Below, in pieces: positions 2,314 to 13,106 of a DNA stretch of 64,000 nucleotides. This DNA is from Bifidobacteriaceae bacterium (GTDB lineage Bacteria; Actinomycetota; Actinomycetes; Actinomycetales; Bifidobacteriaceae): contig JALCQD010000003.1 in the NCBI GenBank assembly GCA_022651005.1, positions 248,001 to 312,000 on the forward strand, read 5' to 3'. The stretch's first letter is position 1. Each line of letters begins with the position of its first letter. A program made the translations under genes and the position numbers. The notes under the pieces are model-generated. The model saw only the letters and a program-made list of their open reading frames with translations, had not been told where the DNA came from and did not search any database.

Positions 2314-3174
2314 ATGACTACTTATGCAATTGCTGCGGTGACAGGTCGGTATGGTCGAGCGGCGCTGGATCAGCTGCTGACGCGTGTGGGGAAGGACGAC
2401 AAGGTAATCGCTCTCGCCCGCAACGTGGAGAAGGCGAAGACAATGGTTCCGCAGAACGTCGAGGTACGCGCCGGGGACTACGCGGATGCCGGCAGCATGG
2501 TGGAGGCTCTCAAGGGAGTCGACCGCCTACTGTTCGTCTCCTCGCAGCCAGGTGCGGCGGTTCCCCGCACGCGCCAGCACCAGAACGTCATCGATGCTGC
2601 AGTCAAGGACGGTGTAAGCCTCCTCGCGTACACGAGCTTCGCAAAGGCAGATACTGCAAAGGCGCCTCTCGCCGAAGACCATCAGTACACCGAGGCGGCA
2701 CTCAAGAAGTCGGGTCTCCGGTATGCGTTCTTGCGCAATGCCTGGTATTTCGAAAACGACGCCGCTGTTTTTAAGGCCGCAGCAGCCGGAAAGCCCTTGA
2801 CGTATTCTGCGGGCGACGGCCGCGTGAGCTGGGCCGCAGAAAATGACTATGCGGTGGCGGGAGCGAACGTCCTCGCTTCGAAGGATCCGAAAGCAGTCTA
2901 TGAGTTTGGCGGCACGCCACGCACTTTCGCGGATGCTGCGGCAGTTGTTGAACAGGTCACCGGCACGAAGGTCACGTTGAATCCGGTGGACGACGCCACA
3001 TACGAGAAGGGCTTGGAAGCCTCGGGCATGCAGCCGGGCGTTGCTCAGTTGCTGACGAGTTTCCAGACCATGATGCGTAACGGCGAGCTTGACGTCGATT
3101 CATCCGACCTGGAAGACGCGCTGGGGCGTCCGGCCACGCCTTTCGCCGAGGCGATGAAGCATGCAATCGCATAA
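2314..3174 (+). CDS. qorB: NmrA-like NAD(P)H-binding oxidoreductase (QorB/YtfG type)
   Basis: A 286-residue atypical short-chain dehydrogenase of the NmrA/QOR2 type. The N-terminus AIAAVTGRYGRAALDQLL is the dinucleotide-binding turn (a GxxGxxG variant), and residues 65-75 (VDRLLFVSSQPG) and FLRNAWYFEND match quinone oxidoreductase 2 proteins, which use NADPH to reduce quinones. The family may act as a redox sensor or in electrophile detoxification. An AAGGGA ribosome site lies 7 bp before the ATG. The gene overlaps the following Rrf2 regulator by 14 bp; pairing of a qorB-like enzyme with a thiol-based regulator is common in Gram-positives. The symbol is assigned by family resemblance, not proven orthology. 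Confidence 0.75.
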   Translation: MTTYAIAAVTGRYGRAALDQLLTRVGKDDKVIALARNVEKAKTMVPQNVEVRAGDYADAGSMVEALKGVDRLLFVSSQPGAAVPRTRQHQNVIDAAVKDGVSLLAYTSFAKADTAKAPLAEDHQYTEAALKKSGLRYAFLRNAWYFENDAAVFKAAAAGKPLTYSAGDGRVSWAAENDYAVAGANVLASKDPKAVYEFGGTPRTFADAAAVVEQVTGTKVTLNPVDDATYEKGLEASGMQPGVAQLLTSFQTMMRNGELDVDSSDLEDALGRPATPFAEAMKHAIA

Positions 3175-3637
3175 GCTCAGCGATGCCATTCACATCCTGA
3201 CATACATCGAGGTCTTCGGGCGGGATCGTGCCGCAGGCATCGACCCGTCCGTGCCCCATGTCGATCTATCGAGCGCTTCGATTGCCAAAAGCGTGGAATC
3301 AAACCCCGGTCTCATCCGCAGGCTCATGTCCACGCTCGCGAAGGCGGGTCTGCTGGACACCCGTCCTGGTTCGGCCGAACCACGGCTTGCTCGTCCCATT
3401 GAGGACATCTCCGTGCTTGACGTCTATCGCGCCATCGGGGGAGAAACTCGTTTCCTCAACATCGACGAGAAAACGAATCCACAATGCATCGTGGGAGGCA
3501 ACATCCAGCAGTCGCTCAATGACGTGTACTCCCGCGTACAGGCCAGCGCCGAGGCGACGATGGCCAGCACAAGCCTGGCCACGATTGTCGACGACGTCCT
3601 GCGCCGAGAGCAGGCGAAGACCGCCGTGCAGGCGTGA
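3161..3637 (+). CDS. Rrf2-family transcriptional regulator
   Basis: A 158-residue winged-helix protein of the Rrf2 family (YwnA/CymR/IscR/NsrR relatives). The N-terminal HTH includes SSASIAKSVESNPGLIRRLMSTLAKAGLL, the usual Rrf2 DNA-recognition region. It has a single cysteine (Cys109, in NPQCIVGG) rather than the three of iron-sulfur IscR or NsrR, so Fe-S sensing of NO is unlikely; single-thiol redox sensing as in YwnA or QorR-type proteins is more plausible. It overlaps the QorB-like gene by 14 bp and lies 108 bp upstream of the nitrite reductase operon, so it could control either or both (inference). Confidence 0.85.
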   Translation: MQSHKLSDAIHILTYIEVFGRDRAAGIDPSVPHVDLSSASIAKSVESNPGLIRRLMSTLAKAGLLDTRPGSAEPRLARPIEDISVLDVYRAIGGETRFLNIDEKTNPQCIVGGNIQQSLNDVYSRVQASAEATMASTSLATIVDDVLRREQAKTAVQA

Positions 3638-3745: not shown

Positions 3746-5113
3746 GTGGCAGGAGAACCCAGCGATCGCAGCGAGAATAAGACGGCGCACAAGGGAAAAG
3801 TTCCGCAGGACGTTGGTTCCTTTTCGCATGCTCGCACGCCAGGCGCTGCCGTTAAGCTCCCTAAAACACGTCTTGTGCTTCTCTTCCTCGCCGCGATCGG
3901 TGCCCTTATTGGCCTGAATTCCGCGCTCATTCGCTCCTCCCTTCCCGCCATCGTGAGCCGAGCTCCACTTGGTGACGGTCACGGAGTTTTTATGGTCTTC
4001 GGCTTCCTCGGCGGTGCCATCGGCCTGGAACGTGCCGTCGCCTACCAAGCGGGAAGCCCCGCCAAACCCAAATGGGGTTTTCTTGCTCCGGCGTTCGCGG
4101 GAGTTGGCTCCCTCCTCATGATCTTTGAGGTTTCTCCCCTTGTTTCACGTGAAACACCCATCGCTCCACTTGCCTTCATGGCCTCCAATCCTCAGATGCT
4201 CCCCGGCCTCGCATGGACGCTGTCAATGGCCGCACTCACGGGCATCTACCTGGGCGTGTGGAGACGACAGCAGTCGGTCGCAGTGCTCATACAGCTTCTT
4301 GGTTCCTTCCTTGGTGTGTGTGGCATCGCCCTGTGGGCTCGCGGCGTCGACGCCCAGATGCTGGCACCGTGGTGGATGGCCTATCTCGTGCTCACCATCG
4401 TGGGAGAACGCATCGAACTGGCCCGCGTGGCCTTCATCGCGCACAACATAGAATGGCTGATCTTCTTCTCCGCCCTCGCCTTTTCGCTGACGCTCGGCCT
4501 TTGCCTTCTCAATCCGGCTATTGGCTACCCCGCAATGGGCGTCACCATGGGCATCATGCTCCTCCTCGCCATCACGCACGACACCGCTCGCAAGACATTC
4601 AAACTCAAAGGCGTCACTGGCTTCATGGGAACGTGCATGCTGGTGGGATACGCGTGGGCGCTCCTGGCGGCGGCAGTCTGGATCTTTTCGCCTACGGGAT
4701 TCGAGGGCTACTGGCGCGACATGGCCATTCACGCCTTGGCGATCGGCTTCACCATGTCGATGGTGGCGGCGCACGCGTCCATGATCATCCCCTCCATTAC
4801 TCGGCGCCCCATGACGTACAAGCCTGTTCTGTGGGTCGGCTGGGCCGTGATGCAGCTTGGTCTCGCGGTGCGCCTTCTGGGCACCACGCGCGCTTCCACA
4901 CTCTTGTGGCAATGGGGAGACGGCATCAGCGTCGCTGGAATGCTCGCGATGATGGTGACGGTGGCGGCACTCAACATAGCGACCAGCAAGAAATCTGCGG
5001 CGTCAAAAGCGACCGCAACAGCGACGGCGACAGATCACTCGCGGGCAGTTCACCCAGAAGCGTCGCCTCATCCCAAAGTGACGGCTCCTCCGAAAGCGTC
5101 GTCACAGCGATGA
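3746..5113 (+). CDS. Polytopic membrane protein, NnrS/heme-copper-oxidase-like, in nitrite reductase operon
   Basis: A 455-residue protein with roughly 12 hydrophobic segments after a polar N-terminus of about 40 residues. It starts with GTG preceded by AGAGGTGA. Conserved-looking histidines lie in or near membrane segments: His79 (GDGHGVFMVFGFLGG), His329 (MAIHALAIGF) and His343 (AAHASMIIPS). This pattern resembles NnrS and related haem-binding proteins that accompany denitrification genes, although my family call is by pattern only. It overlaps the next gene by 4 bp (ATGA) and begins an operon with a second membrane protein, a copper nitrite reductase and a DNA glycosylase, suggesting a role in electron delivery, NO handling or copper/haem supply. 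A perfect parS site is embedded in its coding sequence. Confidence 0.7.
   Translation: MAGEPSDRSENKTAHKGKVPQDVGSFSHARTPGAAVKLPKTRLVLLFLAAIGALIGLNSALIRSSLPAIVSRAPLGDGHGVFMVFGFLGGAIGLERAVAYQAGSPAKPKWGFLAPAFAGVGSLLMIFEVSPLVSRETPIAPLAFMASNPQMLPGLAWTLSMAALTGIYLGVWRRQQSVAVLIQLLGSFLGVCGIALWARGVDAQMLAPWWMAYLVLTIVGERIELARVAFIAHNIEWLIFFSALAFSLTLGLCLLNPAIGYPAMGVTMGIMLLLAITHDTARKTFKLKGVTGFMGTCMLVGYAWALLAAAVWIFSPTGFEGYWRDMAIHALAIGFTMSMVAAHASMIIPSITRRPMTYKPVLWVGWAVMQLGLAVRLLGTTRASTLLWQWGDGISVAGMLAMMVTVAALNIATSKKSAASKATATATATDHSRAVHPEASPHPKVTAPPKASSQR
4141..4156. other. parS: parS centromere-like site (ParB binding)
   Basis: The 16-bp sequence TGTTTCACGTGAAACA is a perfect palindrome and is identical to the well-known bacterial parS consensus bound by ParB/Spo0J. 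It sits inside the first gene of the nitrite reductase operon, where it is translated as part of a loop (LVSRETP) between membrane segments. parS sites normally cluster near oriC, so this marks the window as origin-proximal. No parA or parB genes are in the window. Confidence 0.9.
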
Positions 5114-6489
5114 GTGAGCAACCTCGTTTTCCTTCTTCCTCGCCTCAGCGCGGTCTGCGCGGCCGGTGGTCAGACGATCACTTTACCCTCGCGTGGATGC
5201 TCATCGCCGTGGTGACGTGCGTGATGGCCATCGTTGCCCCCGGGTTCCTCGTGCAGCCCCTGTGGACGCCACTGCATGCCATCGCGCTCGGCGTGGTGAG
5301 CAACGGAATTTTCCAATGGTCATGGTTCTTCTCCCGCGGTCTGCTGCACTTCCCGCTCGCTGGCGTGGCACGATACTCAACATTCGTGCGCATCGTGGTG
5401 CTCAACGTCGGTATCATGGCTCTCTTCGCTGCAATGTGGACGGGCAACGTTCCCACAGCGCTCACTGCCACTGTGCTGATATGCGCCGCAGGCGTGCACC
5501 AGGGCGTGGTTTTGGCGGTTGAGGCTCATAGGGCGAAAGGCAACCGTTATGCCCCGATGGTGAGGTATTACGCCGTCGCCTTCTTCCTGTTCGTTCTCAC
5601 TTGCCTCATCGGTGGACTTCTCGCGTACGAGATGATGGCATCTCGCGTTCCCGCCTGGCTTGTGGCATATGCGGATGGCATCGCGGTGGCACATTCGATC
5701 ATCGGTGTGGGCGGTTGGGCAGGCATCACCATTCTTGGAACAGTGGTGACTTTGGGACTTTCGATGCTGCACGCGCGCCAGGATTCCCGTGCTCTTACTT
5801 CCGCACAAAGCGCACTACCGCTGTTTCTGGCGGCAGTTGTCGTCGCCAGCATTGGCGGTGTGGCGGGCCTTCCGATCATGGTGGGATGCGGAGTTCTCGC
5901 TTTTCTCGCCGCTGCGGTAGGGGGAATCGTTGCGCCGCTGTGGCGTTCCTTTGGAGTCAGGAAGCGGAGCTCGCACGCCGTGTGGCCCTTGCTTGCCGGT
6001 CTTGTATGGACCATCGTGCTCCTGGCGGCATTCGCTGTGGAGGCCTTTGTAGCTGAGTCGGTTTCTGTGGTGCGCACAGAGATCATTGATCAATTAGGCG
6101 TGTTCCTGGCGGCGGGAATTGGGCAGATTTTCGTGGCGTCGCTGGCGTACCTGGTTCCCGTCGCCATTGGCGGTGGGCCAACCGTCCAGAGGGTCGGAGA
6201 CGTTGCCGTGTCGTTCCTATGGCCTGTGCGTCTGATGGTGCGCAACGCCGCACTCGTGCTGCTGCTGCTGGGAGGCGCTGTGGGAGGTGGAATCAGCGGC
6301 ACCGTTCGCACCTATTTGCTGGTGATTGTTGTGGCGACGTATGCGGTGGATGTGGTGTTGGTGGCATTTTCTGCAGTGAGGCAGCTGATTGCCAAGCGCA
6401 CCAAACTTGAGGCGAAGGCTATTGCAAAAGGCCGGAATATGACGATGATGAAGAGTACTGAGAAGAAGGCAGAGGGTGGCAATGACTGA
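5110..6489 (+). CDS. Polytopic membrane protein, companion of copper nitrite reductase
   Basis: A 459-residue protein with about 12 predicted membrane segments. The ATG at 5110 overlaps the upstream stop (ATGA), indicating translational coupling. The first membrane segments contain TPLHAIALGVVSNGIFQWSW, which I recall as similar to the N-terminal membrane part of long actinobacterial copper oxidase/nitrite reductase proteins, where a membrane module is fused to a NirK domain. Here the two would be separate polypeptides. A basic C-terminal tail (KRTKLEAKAIAKGRN) follows the last segment. The likely role is a membrane scaffold or electron-input module for the nitrite reductase encoded immediately downstream; no cofactor ligands can be assigned with certainty. 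Confidence 0.65.
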   Translation: MSEQPRFPSSSPQRGLRGRWSDDHFTLAWMLIAVVTCVMAIVAPGFLVQPLWTPLHAIALGVVSNGIFQWSWFFSRGLLHFPLAGVARYSTFVRIVVLNVGIMALFAAMWTGNVPTALTATVLICAAGVHQGVVLAVEAHRAKGNRYAPMVRYYAVAFFLFVLTCLIGGLLAYEMMASRVPAWLVAYADGIAVAHSIIGVGGWAGITILGTVVTLGLSMLHARQDSRALTSAQSALPLFLAAVVVASIGGVAGLPIMVGCGVLAFLAAAVGGIVAPLWRSFGVRKRSSHAVWPLLAGLVWTIVLLAAFAVEAFVAESVSVVRTEIIDQLGVFLAAGIGQIFVASLAYLVPVAIGGGPTVQRVGDVAVSFLWPVRLMVRNAALVLLLLGGAVGGGISGTVRTYLLVIVVATYAVDVVLVAFSAVRQLIAKRTKLEAKAIAKGRNMTMMKSTEKKAEGGND

Positions 6490-8074
6490 GCGCAACGATC
6501 GCGGTGCACGCGATTCCATGGCGGGGCCCGACAGCCAAAAGCCTCGCAAGGTCGAGACCAACGATAGTTTTGCGGCGCAAGGCGCCACAGGTCTGAACCT
6601 TCACCAGGGCTTTCAGATACTGGCGGGCGTGGCCGTCGTGGTGGCCCTCATCGTTGCCTTTATCCTGGTGCGTCCCTCGGAGGCGAAGGACGTGAGCAGC
6701 GTCGGGTCCTCCGGTACGACATCTGAGGCGTCGTCGGGCGGATCTGGATCAGGTACATCGGGCTCGGTTGCCGCTACGGGCAAGACTACGGCGGTGACGG
6801 TCACGGTGGATGGCATGTCGTTCACGCCCTCGAATATTAAGGTTCCGACCGGTAACAAGCTCGCCATCACATTCAATAACACCGGAGATCAGCGGCACGA
6901 CCTCGTTCTCAGCAACGGGGAGAAAACCGCCACCATCGCACCGGGGGCAACGGCGAAGCTGGCAGCCTTCGTGGTGAGCGAGAACATGGACGGCTGGTGT
7001 TCGCTGCCCGGTCACCGTCAGATGGGCATGTACCTCACCATTACGGCCACTGGCTCCGGATCGTCGTCGAGTTCCTCATCTTCTTCGGGAATGAGCGGTA
7101 TGAGTGGGATGGGTTCCATGATGGGCGGATCGTCCTCGAGCTCAGGCGCAGATAGCAATTCCACAACCGACGTTGCGACTCCAAGCGCCGCCGCGCTGCA
7201 GAAGCAGGCTAAGAAGGAAAAGGCATACGACGCCAAGCTTGGTACGCTCACCTCCACGAAGGATCGGAAGTACACCCTGACGGTCACCGAAGGAACACAG
7301 ACCCTCTCCGACGGCGTGACGCGCCAGACCTGGACGTATAACGGCACTGCGCCTGGTCCCGTGTTGCATGGGCATGTTGGTGACACCTTCCACGTGACAC
7401 TCATTAACAAGGGCACGATGGGCCATTCCATCGATTTCCACGCGGGACAGAACAACCCGCAAAAGGTGATGAAGACCATCGATCCGGGAGAGAAGCTCAC
7501 CTACACCTTTACCGCGGATCACGCGGGAATCTGGCTGTATCACTGCTCCACGGCGCCGATGTCCAATCACATCGCCAACGGAATGTACGGTGCGGTGGTC
7601 ATCGAGCCCGACAATCTTAGTGACGTGTCGGCGCAGTACGTGCTCATTCAGGGGGAGGAGTATCTGGGAACGAACGGTGGGCCCGCTGATGCCTCGAAGG
7701 TTGCCGGACTCATCCCCGACATCGCGACGTTCAACGGCCGCGCCTTCCAATACGATGCGCACCCGCTCACCGCCAAGGCGGGGCAGAAAATCCGCATCTG
7801 GATCCTCGACGCGGGCCCGAACGCTGCACTGTCCTTCCACATCGTTGGCGCGCACTTCAACACCGTATGGAAAGAAGGAGCGTACCAAATACGTGACAAC
7901 AAGGCAGCCGGGTCAAGTGGCACGGATGCAGCATCCCAGGCCTTGGGACTGCAGGCGGCGGAAGGCGGCTTCGTGGAACTCACCATCCCGGAAGCAGGGA
8001 GCTACAGCATGGTCAATCACATCATGAGCTTGGCGGAAAAGGGAGCCCACGGAACGTTGAAGGTAACGAAATGA
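6482..8074 (+). CDS. nirK: Membrane-anchored copper nitrite reductase (NirK/AniA type) with N-terminal cupredoxin
   Basis: A 530-residue protein that should reduce nitrite to nitric oxide at the outer face of the membrane. There is one membrane segment at about 43-63, a Ser/Gly linker, then an extra cupredoxin (about 100-190) with type 1 copper ligands His139, Cys173, His178 and Met183 (rusticyanin-like spacing). A Ser- and Met-rich linker (about 192-222) follows, and then a two-domain NirK core. In the core, type 1 ligands are His315, Cys355, His363 and Met368; type 2 ligands are His320, His354 and His513; the catalytic pair is Asp318 and His453. Every residue needed by the family is present. 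The ATG at 6482 overlaps the upstream gene by 8 bp; a GTG at 6476 is an alternative start. The gene overlaps the DNA glycosylase by 4 bp. Confidence 0.9.
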   Translation: MTERNDRGARDSMAGPDSQKPRKVETNDSFAAQGATGLNLHQGFQILAGVAVVVALIVAFILVRPSEAKDVSSVGSSGTTSEASSGGSGSGTSGSVAATGKTTAVTVTVDGMSFTPSNIKVPTGNKLAITFNNTGDQRHDLVLSNGEKTATIAPGATAKLAAFVVSENMDGWCSLPGHRQMGMYLTITATGSGSSSSSSSSSGMSGMSGMGSMMGGSSSSSGADSNSTTDVATPSAAALQKQAKKEKAYDAKLGTLTSTKDRKYTLTVTEGTQTLSDGVTRQTWTYNGTAPGPVLHGHVGDTFHVTLINKGTMGHSIDFHAGQNNPQKVMKTIDPGEKLTYTFTADHAGIWLYHCSTAPMSNHIANGMYGAVVIEPDNLSDVSAQYVLIQGEEYLGTNGGPADASKVAGLIPDIATFNGRAFQYDAHPLTAKAGQKIRIWILDAGPNAALSFHIVGAHFNTVWKEGAYQIRDNKAAGSSGTDAASQALGLQAAEGGFVELTIPEAGSYSMVNHIMSLAEKGAHGTLKVTK

Positions 8075-8721
8075 CGGACTTCGATTCCTTGCCGTTCCCT
8101 GATTTTCTCGACACCGACGCCGATACTGTGGCGCGCAAGCTTCTGGGATGCTATCTCGTCAGGGATCTGGAAGTACCTGCGGGGGAGGAGGGCACCGCTG
8201 CATCGCATCGTGTCGTCGTGCGCATCGTGGAGACCGAGGCCTACGACCAAAACGACCCTGCGAGCCACGCCTACCATGGCAAAAGCGAACGAAACAAGGC
8301 GCTTTTCGGTCCCTCTGGCCATCTCTACGTCTACTTCACCTACGGCATGCACTACTGCGCTAATATCGCCTGCTTCGAAGACGGCTTCGGCGCAGGAGCG
8401 CTCGTACGCGCCGTAGAACCGGTCGTCGGAAAAGACATCATCGAGACTCGTCGCGGCATGAAGGGTCCCAATGCAACGAATGGTCCGGCGAAACTGTGCA
8501 AGGCGCTCGACATCGACAAGCGCCTCTACTCCCACGACCTGCGTGAGCCGCCGCTGCAGCTCAAAGCGGGGACTCTCATGCCGGAAGAACACGTCCTCGC
8601 CACTGAGCGCATCGGCATCTCGAAGGCAACAGAGCGACTGCGCCGGTTTATTATCGGGGACAATAAGTACGTATCAAAGGGCAAGTTACCGGATAGTACT
8701 CACGTGCGCGCCATCCGGTAG
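8071..8721 (+). CDS. mpg: 3-methyladenine DNA glycosylase (AAG/Mpg family)
   Basis: A 216-residue AAG/MPG-type glycosylase that removes alkylated and deaminated purines (3-methyladenine, hypoxanthine, ethenoadenine) to start base excision repair in the cytoplasm. Visible features are ARKLLGCYLVRD near the N-terminus, the active-site strand RIVETEAYDQNDPASHAYHG with the catalytic glutamate, the nucleotide-intercalating region YVYFTYGMHYCANI, and GPAKLCKALDI. The length is normal for bacterial members (about 200). Its ATG overlaps the nirK stop (ATGA), so it is translationally coupled to the nitrite reductase. Confidence 0.93.
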   Translation: MTDFDSLPFPDFLDTDADTVARKLLGCYLVRDLEVPAGEEGTAASHRVVVRIVETEAYDQNDPASHAYHGKSERNKALFGPSGHLYVYFTYGMHYCANIACFEDGFGAGALVRAVEPVVGKDIIETRRGMKGPNATNGPAKLCKALDIDKRLYSHDLREPPLQLKAGTLMPEEHVLATERIGISKATERLRRFIIGDNKYVSKGKLPDSTHVRAIR

Positions 8722-9258: not shown

Positions 9259-10248
9259 ATGGCTAGAACAAATACGGGCGTGCCCGCGGTGCAGCTCACG
9301 GGTGTGAGTAAGTCGTACGGCAGCCACGAAGCATTGCGTCAAATTGACGCAGTGATCAACCAAGGTGAGATCTTCGGTCTTGTGGGCCGCAACGGTGCCG
9401 GCAAAACAACCCTGATGAAACTGATCCTCGGGCTATCCCAGCCCACATCGGGTACGATCTCCATCAACGGGAGCGTTGGCGGCGCGGCTCTCAACAGAGA
9501 GCGCAAGTCCATCGGCTACCTCGTGGGACAGAGCTTCTTCGGGTCTCTTAACGCCGTAGACAATCTCAAATACTTCAGCAAGCTCAAGGGCGTGAGTGGC
9601 GGGCGCAAGGAAATCCAGCGCGTGCTACATCTCGTGGGGCTGGAGAGCGTCAAAACGCCGCTCAAGGGATATTCGATGGGCATGAAGCAGCGCTTCGGCA
9701 TCGCCAACGCCCTGCTGGGCGGACCCCGCCTCATCATCCTCGACGAGCCCATCAACGGCCTTGATCCGCAAGGCATCGCGGAGATGCGCGACCTCTTCAA
9801 ATATCTCAATGAGCAAGAGGGGATCACCATCATCATCTCCTCTCACCTTCTGAGCGAGTTGGCGCTCACGGCCACCAGCTTCGGTGTGATCCACGACGGC
9901 CGCATGGTCGTCGAGCTCACGCATTCCCAGCTGGAACACCAGACCAAGGCGCAACGCCTCGAAGTGGTGACTAACGACAACGTGCGCGCCGCTCAACTGC
10001 TCCGAGAGCGTTTCAATGTTGCAGTGGCACTCGAGGATGGCACCATCATTCTTAACGACGCAAGCACTGCAGACGCTTCGGCAGGTGCTGCGGCTGCCAG
10101 CGCGCCCGGTGTTCCTTCTGCTGTTCCGCCTGAGCGAGTGGCCGCAGCTCTGCTCAATTCCGGCTTCGATCTCACGGAACTGCACACGCGCCGCCAAAGC
10201 CTCGAAGACTTCTACTTCTCCATCACCGGAGGTGAACCCAATGCTTAA
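9259..10248 (+). CDS. ABC transporter ATP-binding protein (drug/peptide efflux type)
   Basis: A 329-residue ATPase subunit. The Walker A is GRNGAGKTT, the signature region is GYSMGMKQRFGIA (a relaxed form of LSGGQ, common in bacitracin/lantibiotic-type exporters), the Walker B is LIILDEPINGLDP, and the switch histidine is in IISSHLLSEL. A long, Ala-rich C-terminal extension (about residues 245-329) is typical of the BcrA/NatA-like group. It overlaps the permease gene by 8 bp. A YxeA-like protein follows, which suggests antimicrobial peptide resistance or envelope stress, but the substrate is not determined. Confidence 0.88.
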   Translation: MARTNTGVPAVQLTGVSKSYGSHEALRQIDAVINQGEIFGLVGRNGAGKTTLMKLILGLSQPTSGTISINGSVGGAALNRERKSIGYLVGQSFFGSLNAVDNLKYFSKLKGVSGGRKEIQRVLHLVGLESVKTPLKGYSMGMKQRFGIANALLGGPRLIILDEPINGLDPQGIAEMRDLFKYLNEQEGITIIISSHLLSELALTATSFGVIHDGRMVVELTHSQLEHQTKAQRLEVVTNDNVRAAQLLRERFNVAVALEDGTIILNDASTADASAGAAAASAPGVPSAVPPERVAAALLNSGFDLTELHTRRQSLEDFYFSITGGEPNA

Positions 10249-10996
10249 CTACTGGAAAGCAGACGCCTTTAGAATCGTGCGCTCGCGGAGCTTCTGGATC
10301 CTGACGCTCGTCTCCGTGGTGGCCTATGTTGCTGGAGTCTTCATCATCAGCGGCCCTGGCTACTCGACGGATACGCACGTGAGCATCATCATGATGATTG
10401 GCGTGCTCGCCACGATCTTCACGGGCCTGGGCGTCTACAACGCCATCTACAGCCAAGACATCAAGGCGGGCGCCATGCGCGTGGCCATCGGCAGGGGAAC
10501 GGCGCGCAGCCGCATTGTGGCAGCCAAGCTCATCGAAACCATCGTGGTGACGGCGCTCCTCGGGCTTGTGTATTATGTTGTGTTCTGCTTCCTCCCGCTG
10601 GTATTCGGCATTGCAGGCAGCACAGTTTTGACCACGACGATCACCACCAGCGTGCTGCAGATAGTGCTGGGAACGGTGGTGTACGCCTCTATCTCCTCCA
10701 TCGTGAGCATGGCTCGGCAGGAATCCGTCACAGCAACCGTGGTGTTCGTGCTACTTGCGGCGGGCGTCGTTGACCAGCTGCTTGGCCTGCTGCTCAAGCT
10801 GAAGATGGTGACGAGCCTAGTCGGCAATCTCACGGGGTACCTTCCGCAGACGGTGGCCAGCAATCTCAGCATGCAGATTACGGGGGTTGGTACCGCCAGC
10901 GTAAGCGTCGCCACAGTGTGCGTCTACGTCGGTTATGTGGTGGTGTCACTGGTGTTGGCGAGCTGGGTATTTAGCCGCAAGGAACTCGAGTTCTGA
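10241..10996 (+). CDS. ABC-2 type transporter permease
   Basis: A 251-residue membrane protein with six hydrophobic segments and the layout of BcrB/ABC-2 permeases: a short cytoplasmic N-terminus with RIVRSRSFW, then a first segment and a large loop with the conserved GAMRVAIGRGTARSRIVAAKL. The start at 10241 overlaps the ATPase gene by 8 bp, so the two are co-translated and form one exporter. Confidence 0.88.
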   Translation: MLNYWKADAFRIVRSRSFWILTLVSVVAYVAGVFIISGPGYSTDTHVSIIMMIGVLATIFTGLGVYNAIYSQDIKAGAMRVAIGRGTARSRIVAAKLIETIVVTALLGLVYYVVFCFLPLVFGIAGSTVLTTTITTSVLQIVLGTVVYASISSIVSMARQESVTATVVFVLLAAGVVDQLLGLLLKLKMVTSLVGNLTGYLPQTVASNLSMQITGVGTASVSVATVCVYVGYVVVSLVLASWVFSRKELEF

Positions 10997-11078
10997 GCGT
11001 TCCCACGGCTCTGGTAATGATAAATGAGCGAGAATTTCAGATGAGAATTCACAGTTTTAAGAGTTGAGGAGCATTTAT

Positions 11079-11477
11079 ATGGCACGGAAATCTTCTTTTG
11101 CAGGGTGGATTATCGGCATCGTTGTGGTGGTGATCGTAGTAGCCGGCGGCATGTGGGCTAAGAATTATTACAACGATCGGTATGTGTCGCAGTCGTACTA
11201 CGCGCAGGTTCCCGCGGACGAAACGATGACGCTTGAAGGGCTCAAGGACGATCAGGGTAAGGTGGTCGACAAGGGTCATCGGTACGAGCTGACGGCGTAC
11301 GACAAGAACGGCGTTGAGCGCAAGCTGGACGTCACGGTGTATACCAACAAGACGAGCGCACTGTACAAGCCGGGCACCTACCTCAAGATTGAGGCGAGTA
11401 AGCAGATTGTGACCGGGCAGGCCGTGATTCACGAGGGCGATATTCCGCCGGCAGCGTTCGCGAAGATTCAAGACTGA
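11079..11477 (+). CDS. YxeA-like small secreted or membrane-tethered protein
   Basis: A 132-residue protein with one N-terminal membrane segment (about residues 9-27) and an extracytoplasmic domain resembling YxeA (DUF1093). Typical features are YYNDRYVSQSYYAQV, DKGHRYELTAYDKNGVE and YLKIEASK near the end. The start follows GAGGAG at a spacing of 8. In Bacillus, yxeA lies with a BceAB-type exporter induced by cationic peptides. Here it sits 82 bp after the ABC pair, before a strong terminator, and probably belongs to the same transcript. The function is unknown. Confidence 0.75.
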   Translation: MARKSSFAGWIIGIVVVVIVVAGGMWAKNYYNDRYVSQSYYAQVPADETMTLEGLKDDQGKVVDKGHRYELTAYDKNGVERKLDVTVYTNKTSALYKPGTYLKIEASKQIVTGQAVIHEGDIPPAAFAKIQD

Positions 11478-11520
11478 GCGGCTTTGGGCCGGGGAAACTG
11501 ACTCGGCCGTGGTGGGTAAT

Positions 11521-11557
11521 GAGCGGGGATTGATAGTGTGCCATCCCCGCTCTTTTT
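11521..11557 (+). terminator. Rho-independent terminator of ABC-yxeA operon
   Basis: A perfect 10-bp stem GAGCGGGGAT/ATCCCCGCTC with a 12-nt loop is followed by five T residues. Confidence 0.9.
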
Positions 11558-11639
11558 GTATTTTTATCTGTATTTCGAACAAATTCACATTCGACCACAG
11601 GGGTTGAAATCTAGTACACTCCTGCGCTTCTTTAAGTAG

Positions 11640-11675
11640 CTTCTTCAGCAAAGCGACGACGGTTTGCTGAAGAAG
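11640..11675. repeat. 13-bp perfect inverted repeat of unknown role
   Basis: CTTCTTCAGCAAA (11640-11652) and TTTGCTGAAGAAG (11663-11675) with a 10-nt loop. Neither strand has a T-run after the stem, so it is not a standard terminator. The right arm runs into a Shine-Dalgarno-like GAAGGAG. Confidence 0.6.
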
Positions 11676-11763
11676 GAGATGCAAGAAAATGCGCGAAATG
11701 TACCGAAAATCTATGGGACTACAAGGACCGGTCCCCAATTGTGGACAGTTGAAATGTACTTCA

Positions 11764-11785
11764 ATTATACCTAATGAGGTATAAT
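11764..11785. promoter_or_regulatory. Palindromic operator candidate of the higBA operon
   Basis: ATTATACCT (11764-11772) and AGGTATAAT (11777-11785) are perfect 9-bp arms around AATG, ending 1 bp before the toxin ATG. The right arm contains the toxin's ribosome site (GAGGT). Toxin-antitoxin operons are usually autorepressed by the antitoxin at such palindromes. Confidence 0.6.
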
Positions 11786-11786
11786 C

Positions 11787-12155
11787 ATGTGGACGGTTGA
11801 TGAACACCTCATTGAAACGTGGTTATTACAACAAGATGAGGAGACGAAGGTTTCCATTTTCGCTGTTCTCGAACTTCTCGAAAGAGAGGGGCCGATGCTT
11901 CGTCGGCCCTTGGTAGGGGAGATAAAGCATTCGAAATACAAAAGAATGAAAGAACTAAGACCACCTTCCACAGGGCGTAGCGAGGCGCGAATTATCTTTG
12001 CGTTCGATCCGCACAGAACAGCAGTTTTACTTCTTGCTGGTGATAAGGCCAACAAGCAGGGTTTGCGCGGCGGTCTTAAGTGGAATGCGTGGTACAGGAA
12101 AGTGCTGCCGATAGCGGATGAATTATTTGACCAACATCTCAGGTCATTGGAGTGA
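11787..12155 (+). CDS. higB: HigB/RelE-superfamily toxin
   Basis: A 122-residue protein of the HigB-like (phage-derived Gp49) RelE superfamily, predicted to be a ribosome-dependent or free mRNA endonuclease that inhibits translation. The start MWTVDEHLIETWLLQQDEE, the region VLELLEREGPMLRRPLV with ELRPPSTGRSEARIIFAFDP, and the later AVLLLAGDKANKQ match this group. It is followed 11 bp later by its HTH antitoxin; toxin-first order is typical of HigBA. Codon use is somewhat AT-richer than in neighbours, consistent with horizontal acquisition. Confidence 0.85.
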   Translation: MWTVDEHLIETWLLQQDEETKVSIFAVLELLEREGPMLRRPLVGEIKHSKYKRMKELRPPSTGRSEARIIFAFDPHRTAVLLLAGDKANKQGLRGGLKWNAWYRKVLPIADELFDQHLRSLE

Positions 12156-12166
12156 AAGGATCGAAT

Positions 12167-12487
12167 ATGAGTGAAAAGACGCCGAATTGGAGAGATAGCC
12201 CTGCTTTCCGCGATATCTCTGACGAAGAGATTGCGAAAGCCAGGAAGCGCACTGAGGAATACATCAATGAGTATGCGCTCAAGCAAGCGAGAAAATCCCG
12301 CAGGCTGACTCAGGTCGCAGTGGCACTCAAGATGGGTGTGAGTCAGAAGCGCATCAGCAAGCTTGAATCAGGCGATGTGTCCCGTTTAAAGATGGACACG
12401 TTAAAGCGGTATGCCGAAACACTGGGTGGAAAGCTGCGGGTAGAGATTGAGCTGCCCGGCAAAACGATTCATTTGATGGGCGAGTAA
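12167..12487 (+). CDS. higA: XRE-family HTH antitoxin
   Basis: A 106-residue protein with a central helix-turn-helix (about residues 38-92: LTQVAVALKMGVSQKRISKLE). The N-terminal DEEIAKARKRTEEYINEYALKQ helix probably wraps the toxin. The ATG at 12167 follows AAAGGA. It should neutralise the upstream HigB-like toxin and repress their shared promoter at the palindrome just upstream of the toxin gene. Confidence 0.85.
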   Translation: MSEKTPNWRDSPAFRDISDEEIAKARKRTEEYINEYALKQARKSRRLTQVAVALKMGVSQKRISKLESGDVSRLKMDTLKRYAETLGGKLRVEIELPGKTIHLMGE

Positions 12488-12488
12488 G

Positions 12489-12527
12489 AGGCTCGTTCAA
12501 GCGGCGTTGAAGCCGCAAGACGAGCCT
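12489..12527. terminator. Hairpin between convergent higA and ahpC
   Basis: AGGCTCGT (12489-12496) pairs with ACGAGCCT (12520-12527), with a second inner stem GCGGC/GCCGC. There is no clear T-run, so the termination role is likely but not certain. Confidence 0.4.
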
Positions 12528-12542
12528 ACGAAGAACCTAAAC

Positions 12543-13106
12543 TCAGATTTTTCCAATCAAATCAAGGCTCGGGATGATGGTGTCATCGCCTGGATGCCAG
12601 TTAGCAGGGCATACGTGATCGCCGTGCTCGGCCACAAATTGAGCAGCTTCAAGCGTACGCAACACTTCCTCCGCGTTACGGCCTATGCCCATGTTGTTGA
12701 CCTGATATGACTGAATCACACCCTGCGGATCCACGATGATAGTGGCGCGGTATGCCTGCCCGGTCTCCTCGTCGAGCACGTCAAAGAAGCGTGCGAGCTT
12801 GCCTGCCGGATCCGCCAACATTGGGTATTTCACCTTGCCGATAGTGGGCGTGGCCTGCGACCACGCTTCATGCACGAATTCCGTATCCTCAGACACCGAA
12901 TAGATTTCCGCGTTCGCCTTCTGGAAGTCCGCGTAGTGATCCGCCATGTCACCCAGCTCGGTGGGGCACACGAACGAGAAGTCAGCAGGATAGAAGAAGA
13001 ACACGGCCCACTTGCCAAGAGTATCTGCCTTGGACACGGTGGTGAGTTTCCCATCGTGGTAAGCATTAACAGTGAAGTCAGCTACTTCTTGATTGATAAA
13101 TGTCAT
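12543..13106 (-). CDS. ahpC: Peroxiredoxin, alkyl hydroperoxide reductase subunit C
   Basis: A 187-residue typical 2-Cys peroxiredoxin that reduces H2O2, organic peroxides and peroxynitrite. The peroxidatic Cys47 lies in ADFSFVCPTEL and the resolving cysteine in HVCPANW near the C-terminus. Length and motifs match AhpC. The start at 13106 follows GAAAGGG. No ahpF reductase is adjacent, so electrons must come from a thioredoxin-reductase-type protein encoded elsewhere. Confidence 0.95.
   Translation of the reverse strand: MTFINQEVADFTVNAYHDGKLTTVSKADTLGKWAVFFFYPADFSFVCPTELGDMADHYADFQKANAEIYSVSEDTEFVHEAWSQATPTIGKVKYPMLADPAGKLARFFDVLDEETGQAYRATIIVDPQGVIQSYQVNNMGIGRNAEEVLRTLEAAQFVAEHGDHVCPANWHPGDDTIIPSLDLIGKI

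Follow-up and report, generated by a model that had tools for sequence, protein, structure and literature searches.

The window analysed here is a stretch of 64,000 nucleotides from an uncultured Bifidobacteriaceae bacterium (assembly GCA_022651005.1, contig JALCQD010000003.1, positions 248,001 to 312,000) whose genome comprises 2,162,097 bases in 6 contigs and is 95.6% complete. By its open reading frames, positions 3746-8721 of the window hold four plus-strand genes with overlapping ends: two membrane-protein genes, g1 (3746..5113, 455 amino acids) and g2 (5110..6489, 459 amino acids), each with about 12 helices in its predicted model; nirK (6476..8074), encoding a membrane-anchored cupredoxin joined to a copper nitrite reductase; and mpg (8071..8721, 216 amino acids), encoding an AAG-type methylpurine-DNA glycosylase (MPG). 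Counted from the GTG at 6476, NirK has 532 residues, and an alternative in-frame ATG lies at 6482. The overlaps measure 4 bases between g1 and g2, 14 (GTG start) or 8 (ATG start) between g2 and nirK, and 4 between nirK and mpg, where the start of the glycosylase gene overlaps the nirK stop in the tetranucleotide ATGA (8071..8074). A ribosome-binding-like GAAGG (8059..8063) lies inside the end of nirK, 7 bases upstream of the mpg ATG, and the motif TGAAGGT upstream of mpg is preserved in both sister genomes (L032, L033). Promoter-like sites number 2 against 1.8 expected and terminator-like sites 9 against 4.3 expected, with none 3′ of mpg on the plus strand. Judged by its sequence, mpg is probably translationally coupled as the last gene of a g1-g2-nirK operon.

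Aligned to solved NirK structures, the window protein has type 1 copper ligands at H317, C357, H365 and M370, type 2 copper ligands at H322, H356 and H515, and catalytic residues at D320 and H455, with roles assigned by the customary NirK numbering. Its best match to a solved structure has an E value of 5.6e-45, and among the best 60 of 197 structure matches 58 are named nitrite reductase, the remaining 2 being 'Major outer membrane protein PAN 1' and 'Multicopper oxidase type 1'. The catalytic region extends over residues 270-531 (7283..8068). The protein also contains a hydrophobic helix (residues 47-65) and an extra N-terminal cupredoxin domain (Pfam PF13473, residues 99-162, 6770..6961), whose candidate ligands, H141, C175, H180 and M183/M185, run on to residue 185. 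Against the NCBIfam equivalog TIGR02376 it scores 144 bits, below the cut-off of 296.3, as do three other actinobacterial NirKs (124-154 bits); the protein is therefore assigned as an actinobacterial NirK by its residues and not under TIGR02376. On these grounds it should reduce nitrite to nitric oxide (NO).

Neither g1 nor g2 has a Pfam or NCBIfam match, and homology between the two is undetectable by BLAST or shallow profiles, although their predicted folds agree. AlphaFold models of g1 (pLDDT 73.1 from 11 sequences, moderate confidence) and g2 (61.3 from 3 sequences, low confidence) have the 12-helix fold of the heme-copper oxidases and NO reductases, and match catalytic subunits of cbb3 oxidase (CcoN; 8smr_E, 3mk7) and NO reductase (NorB; 4xyd_A) with Z scores of 25-27 over 357-393 aligned residues, at about 10% sequence identity. 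For 8smr_E the values are Z 26.8 over 357 residues (g1) and 27.0 over 389 (g2), and for 4xyd_A Z 25.2 (g1) and 26.5 (g2); Foldseek alone gives E < 0.001 for one match of g1 and for none of g2. In these enzymes the binuclear centre is built on histidines in helices 6, 7 and 10. Where the letter is present, the invariant histidines among 37 relatives of g1 are H79 (helix 2) and H329 and H343 (helix 10), and those among 33 relatives of g2 are H56 (helix 2) and H195 (helix 6). Assigned by helix count, without residue-level superposition, the conserved histidines of g1 leave helices 6 and 7 empty, and those of g2 supply helix 6 with one but helices 7 and 10 with none, so that a full binuclear centre is not present in either. 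The two proteins are predicted to have a heme-copper oxidase/NO-reductase fold without a full active site, and it is possible that they act as heme-binding electron-transfer scaffolds. That one or both could instead be diverged NO reductases, letting the operon alone convert nitrite to N2O, would agree with the fold matches and with a search of the window genome (95.6% complete) that found no match to the oxidase/NO-reductase family PF00115 (controls positive 8/14). We consider this very improbable in view of the missing binuclear-centre histidines, the moderate and low confidence of the two models, and the finding of no g2 in most nirK loci of the family. The family NnrS (PF05940) was also considered; it has no match in the genome up to E 10, and none for g1 or g2. 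In the working that we propose, electrons would pass from the membrane through the g1/g2 scaffolds, which keep possible heme-ligand histidines, to the cupredoxin domain and on to the copper sites of NirK, and nitrite would be reduced to NO outside the membrane, a chemistry established for the NirK family.

MPG passes both curated cut-offs of its family, with 195 bits against PF02245 (cut-off 27) and 192 bits against NF002003, DNA-3-methyladenine glycosylase (cut-off 182). Counterparts of E125, Y127, H136, Y159, N169 and R182 of human AAG (1f4r) are all found in the alignment, and the window protein differs from the AAG/MPG family only by its position in a nirK operon. Compared with the two sister genomes, mpg has dN/dS values of 0.08 and 0.13, similar to those of nirK; the gene is under purifying selection within the genus. 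An earlier note on this DNA had described four overlapping genes, a NirK with every type 1, type 2 and catalytic residue, and an AAG-type glycosylase whose start overlaps the nirK stop, and each of these descriptions is borne out. MPG-type enzymes initiate the repair of hypoxanthine, and 3-methyladenine and 7-methylguanine are also substrates of AAG-type enzymes (PMC4693234). We propose, tentatively and with less than even confidence, that this is a NirK operon with a resident mpg as its coupled last gene, in which co-expressed MPG would excise hypoxanthine and other purines damaged by NO-derived species inside the cell. The breadth of AAG-type substrates would also suit a glycosylase acting mainly against methylating agents that arise when nitrite or NO nitrosates amines, and the genomic facts are the same for both readings; no sequence feature is known to separate a preference for hypoxanthine from one for methylpurines, and we think it unlikely that methylpurines, not hypoxanthine, are the main substrate here.

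Searches with the window protein found nirK relatives in 31 of 189 Bifidobacteriaceae genomes, representing 6 of 16 genera, in 126 of 396 Actinomycetales genomes and, at a stricter limit, in 42 of 296 from the class. NirK is nothing unusual in the order, and the suggestion that this family is not usually thought of as reducing nitrite does not fit these counts. A nirK tree of 57 rows, which leaves out G129, G145 and G148 of the family and most genomes of the order, places the sampled Bifidobacteriaceae NirKs, except those of G112 and G116, in one clade of 26 rows (support 95/89), with the window genus sister to the remaining 23 family rows (99/93). Domain mapping distinguishes three forms of the locus. 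Separate g1, g2 and nirK genes occur in the window genus, G112 and G116; the other family loci examined have a g1-nirK fusion, in which g1 is the N-terminal membrane half, and show no g2 in the sequence covered at each locus; and in the other Actinomycetales loci examined, g2 is fused to nirK or overlaps it. At one family locus (L105:9341-12126, genome G126) the g1-nirK gene has its g1 portion split over two frames, as a frameshift or an assembly error would produce. The NirK of Propionibacterium acnes is described as a protein of about 900 amino acids with N-terminal transmembrane and cupredoxin domains, and the function of its 400-residue membrane domain is there called unknown (PMC4770552). 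The cupredoxin-NirK core and copper ligands of such actinobacterial NirKs are like those of the window, which differs in having g1, g2 and nirK as three genes with mpg at the end. The P. acnes membrane domain is probably g2-like.

Linkage of nirK and mpg was counted in every genome with both genes from the family, order and class searches. The two genes overlap in all three genomes examined from the window genus (ATGA, ATGA and GTGA), where the matched nirK and mpg regions are separated by 33, 36 and 72 bases, and the overlap is retained despite saturated synonymous sites (dS 1.7-1.9 against L032 and L033). A second arrangement is found in genus g6, the Bifidobacterium asteroides clade, where mpg lies less than 3 kb from nirK, divergently oriented, in 14 of 14 genomes with both. 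At the 10 named loci of this clade in which mpg is seen (L035, L037, L038, L040-L046), genes for a helix-turn-helix regulator (F8), a ferredoxin and MPG follow one another and diverge from the g1-nirK fusion, and the ferredoxin stop overlaps the mpg start as ATGA in all ten. At L122 this row occupies 11273-12989 and the ferredoxin is FdxA (NF045480); G126 has the ferredoxin and mpg without F8. In both arrangements mpg is an operon member beside nirK and is joined to the preceding gene by a 4-base overlap; they differ in that mpg of the B. asteroides clade is divergent and coupled to the ferredoxin and regulator genes, not to nirK, which is itself fused to g1. Since F8 relatives also adjoin nirK in the mpg-less genomes G139 and G143, and in G270, G483 and G458 of two other families, F8 is probably a regulator of the nirK locus. 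By inspection, F8 has a Cys/His-rich pattern at its C terminus. A looser third case is provided by one genus of family f8 (G270, G483), in which mpg lies 6.5-6.7 kb from nirK. Under uniform placement, and with 40-60 lineages assumed, chance would bring the genes within 10 kb in three lineages with a probability of 0.2-0.6%, a statistic that we treat as suggestive only.

Co-occurrence was also assessed. Within the family, mpg is present in 26 of 31 genomes with nirK and in 36 of 158 others (Fisher 1.7e-10, descent not corrected); among new genomes of the class it is present in 27 of 34 with nirK. Endonuclease V, considered as an alternative route of hypoxanthine repair, was found in none of the 189 Bifidobacteriaceae genomes (controls positive 6/14), and mpg may therefore matter for hypoxanthine repair in this family. 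A 2001 paper by Weiss, to judge by its title, connects endonuclease V with mutations that arise in nitrate/nitrite respiration. Given the co-occurrence, endonuclease V and PF00115 results, a role for MPG under NO is reasonable.

How mpg came to lie at nirK was approached through its phylogeny and neighbours. An mpg tree of 70 rows includes every family genome with the linkage and some of the rest, omitting, for example, G004, G026, G063, G096-G099, G101, G102, G104-G107, G171 and G172. In it the sampled Bifidobacteriaceae mpgs form one clade (100/100), and a recent transfer of mpg from outside the family is accordingly not favoured; 151 plasmid records matched mpg, all at <60% identity. The window mpg joins those of G163 and G164 and then that of nirK-free G003, with modest support (83/84), and does not group with the mpg of the B. 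asteroides clade. In G003 (L132), mpg adjoins relatives of three genes, DUF3566, VanZ and F15 (the last reading as a glycosyltransferase by inspection), by which the nirK-mpg operon is flanked in G164 (L124). In genus g6, the nirK-free genomes G138 and G152 have mpg beside an MFS-like gene, F10, as in nirK-bearing genomes. Because mpg shares its neighbours with nirK-free genomes in both clades, it has a local home there, and the context points to a nirK operon that came to rest next to an mpg already resident; insertion of nirK next to mpg and loss of nirK from beside it are both compatible with these data. A single ancestral linkage is disfavoured, since mpg has other neighbours in genera g3 and g5 (F4, F12 and F13, mevalonate-pathway-like by inspection) and the linked mpgs belong to different sublineages. 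Two separate recruitments, once behind nirK and once behind its regulator and ferredoxin, are likelier than one, because the window mpg groups with that of G003 and not with those of the B. asteroides clade.

The same observations can be taken to mean that the two genes are fortuitous neighbours, a nirK operon having settled in a variable slot beside a resident mpg, which would now be carried on its transcript as general housekeeping repair unrelated to NO. Between F15 and g1 this slot holds SDR and Rrf2 genes in the window and L032 and an aldo/keto reductase gene in L033 and L124, G003 carries mpg in the same surroundings without nirK, and mpg keeps other company in other genera. Harder to reconcile with such an accident are the presence of mpg in an operon at the nirK locus of a second clade, from a different mpg sublineage, the overlap kept at saturated dS, and the co-occurrence within the family. 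We judge fortuitous placement and a repair partnership about equally likely, each somewhat short of an even chance.

Several further observations weigh against a repair partnership. Overlaps of 4 bases are common in operons, and the window genus also retains part of the flanks. The genes are linked in only 2 of the 5 family genera that have both and unlinked in the other 3; in genera g2, g5 and g15 they lie at least 111 kb apart in 7 genomes and on different contigs in 2. Outside the family they come within 10 kb in 2 of 107 genomes having both and are at least 79 kb apart in 34; in the other 71 they sit on separate contigs and may still be linked across a contig end. With the window lineage left out, the chance calculation for the two other lineages rises to 3-5% under the same assumptions. 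Across the order, mpg is barely more frequent in genomes with nirK (88 of 126) than in the others (163 of 270; p 0.07), and 38 of the 126 have no mpg match; the same is true of 5 of the 31 in the family (G139, G140, G143, G155, G185), and G138 and G152 retain mpg with no nirK match. Finally, because of its N-terminal anchor, NirK would be expected to face outward, and exposure of DNA to its product would therefore be indirect. The adjacency that the earlier note proposed to look for across Bifidobacteriaceae and actinobacteria is not a peculiarity of this strain; it was seen in the window genus and, in divergent form, in g6, and is an exception among the genomes examined. Its idea of a built-in repair partner for self-inflicted nitrosative damage draws support from the linkage in the genus, the second arrangement and the family co-occurrence, and is weakened by the many genomes in which no linkage is visible or mpg is missing. 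We regard the repair partnership as plausible and unproven, and on balance rather less probable than not. That mpg was recruited at least twice into nirK transcription units as an adaptation to self-made NO is of similar or slightly lower probability.

Among the surrounding genes, an NmrA-like SDR gene overlaps the Rrf2 regulator gene at 2314-3637, and the pair sits in the variable slot that separates F15 from the nirK operon. The Rrf2 protein (3161-3637) is unlikely to regulate nirK, because its gene and the SDR gene overlap and L033 and L124 have no Rrf2 gene in this slot. Downstream, 9259-11477 holds an ABC transporter ATPase gene near a lantibiotic-protection subfamily model (193 bits, under the 310-bit cut-off), together with genes for a permease and for a YxeA-like protein that also stays under its cut-off. 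Two small overlapping genes at 11787-12487 resemble a type II toxin-antitoxin pair, presumably a HigB-like protein and a helix-turn-helix protein.

In a survey of titles, with most subscription journals outside its coverage, no publication announcing a nirK-glycosylase pairing was found, nor one announcing NirK in B. asteroides or Bifidobacterium. As far as the available parts of related studies go, a set of gut strains including B. longum ATCC 15697 has no NirK (PMC12998184), a vinasse metagenome holds both nirK and Bifidobacterium without tying them together (PMC5822648), and another source deals with an NAD(P)H nitrite reductase only (PMC6052428).

If the proposed partnership is true, an enzyme of denitrification would have a base-excision partner of its own, and the mutagenicity of self-made NO to its producer would be directly testable in culturable B. 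asteroides from the honeybee gut. The membrane domain of actinobacterial NirK may gain a fold, that of a heme-copper oxidase-like module with a possible part in electron transfer. With nirK in 31 of 189 of its genomes, the family Bifidobacteriaceae is also relevant to nitrite and NO in bee guts and manure fermenters.

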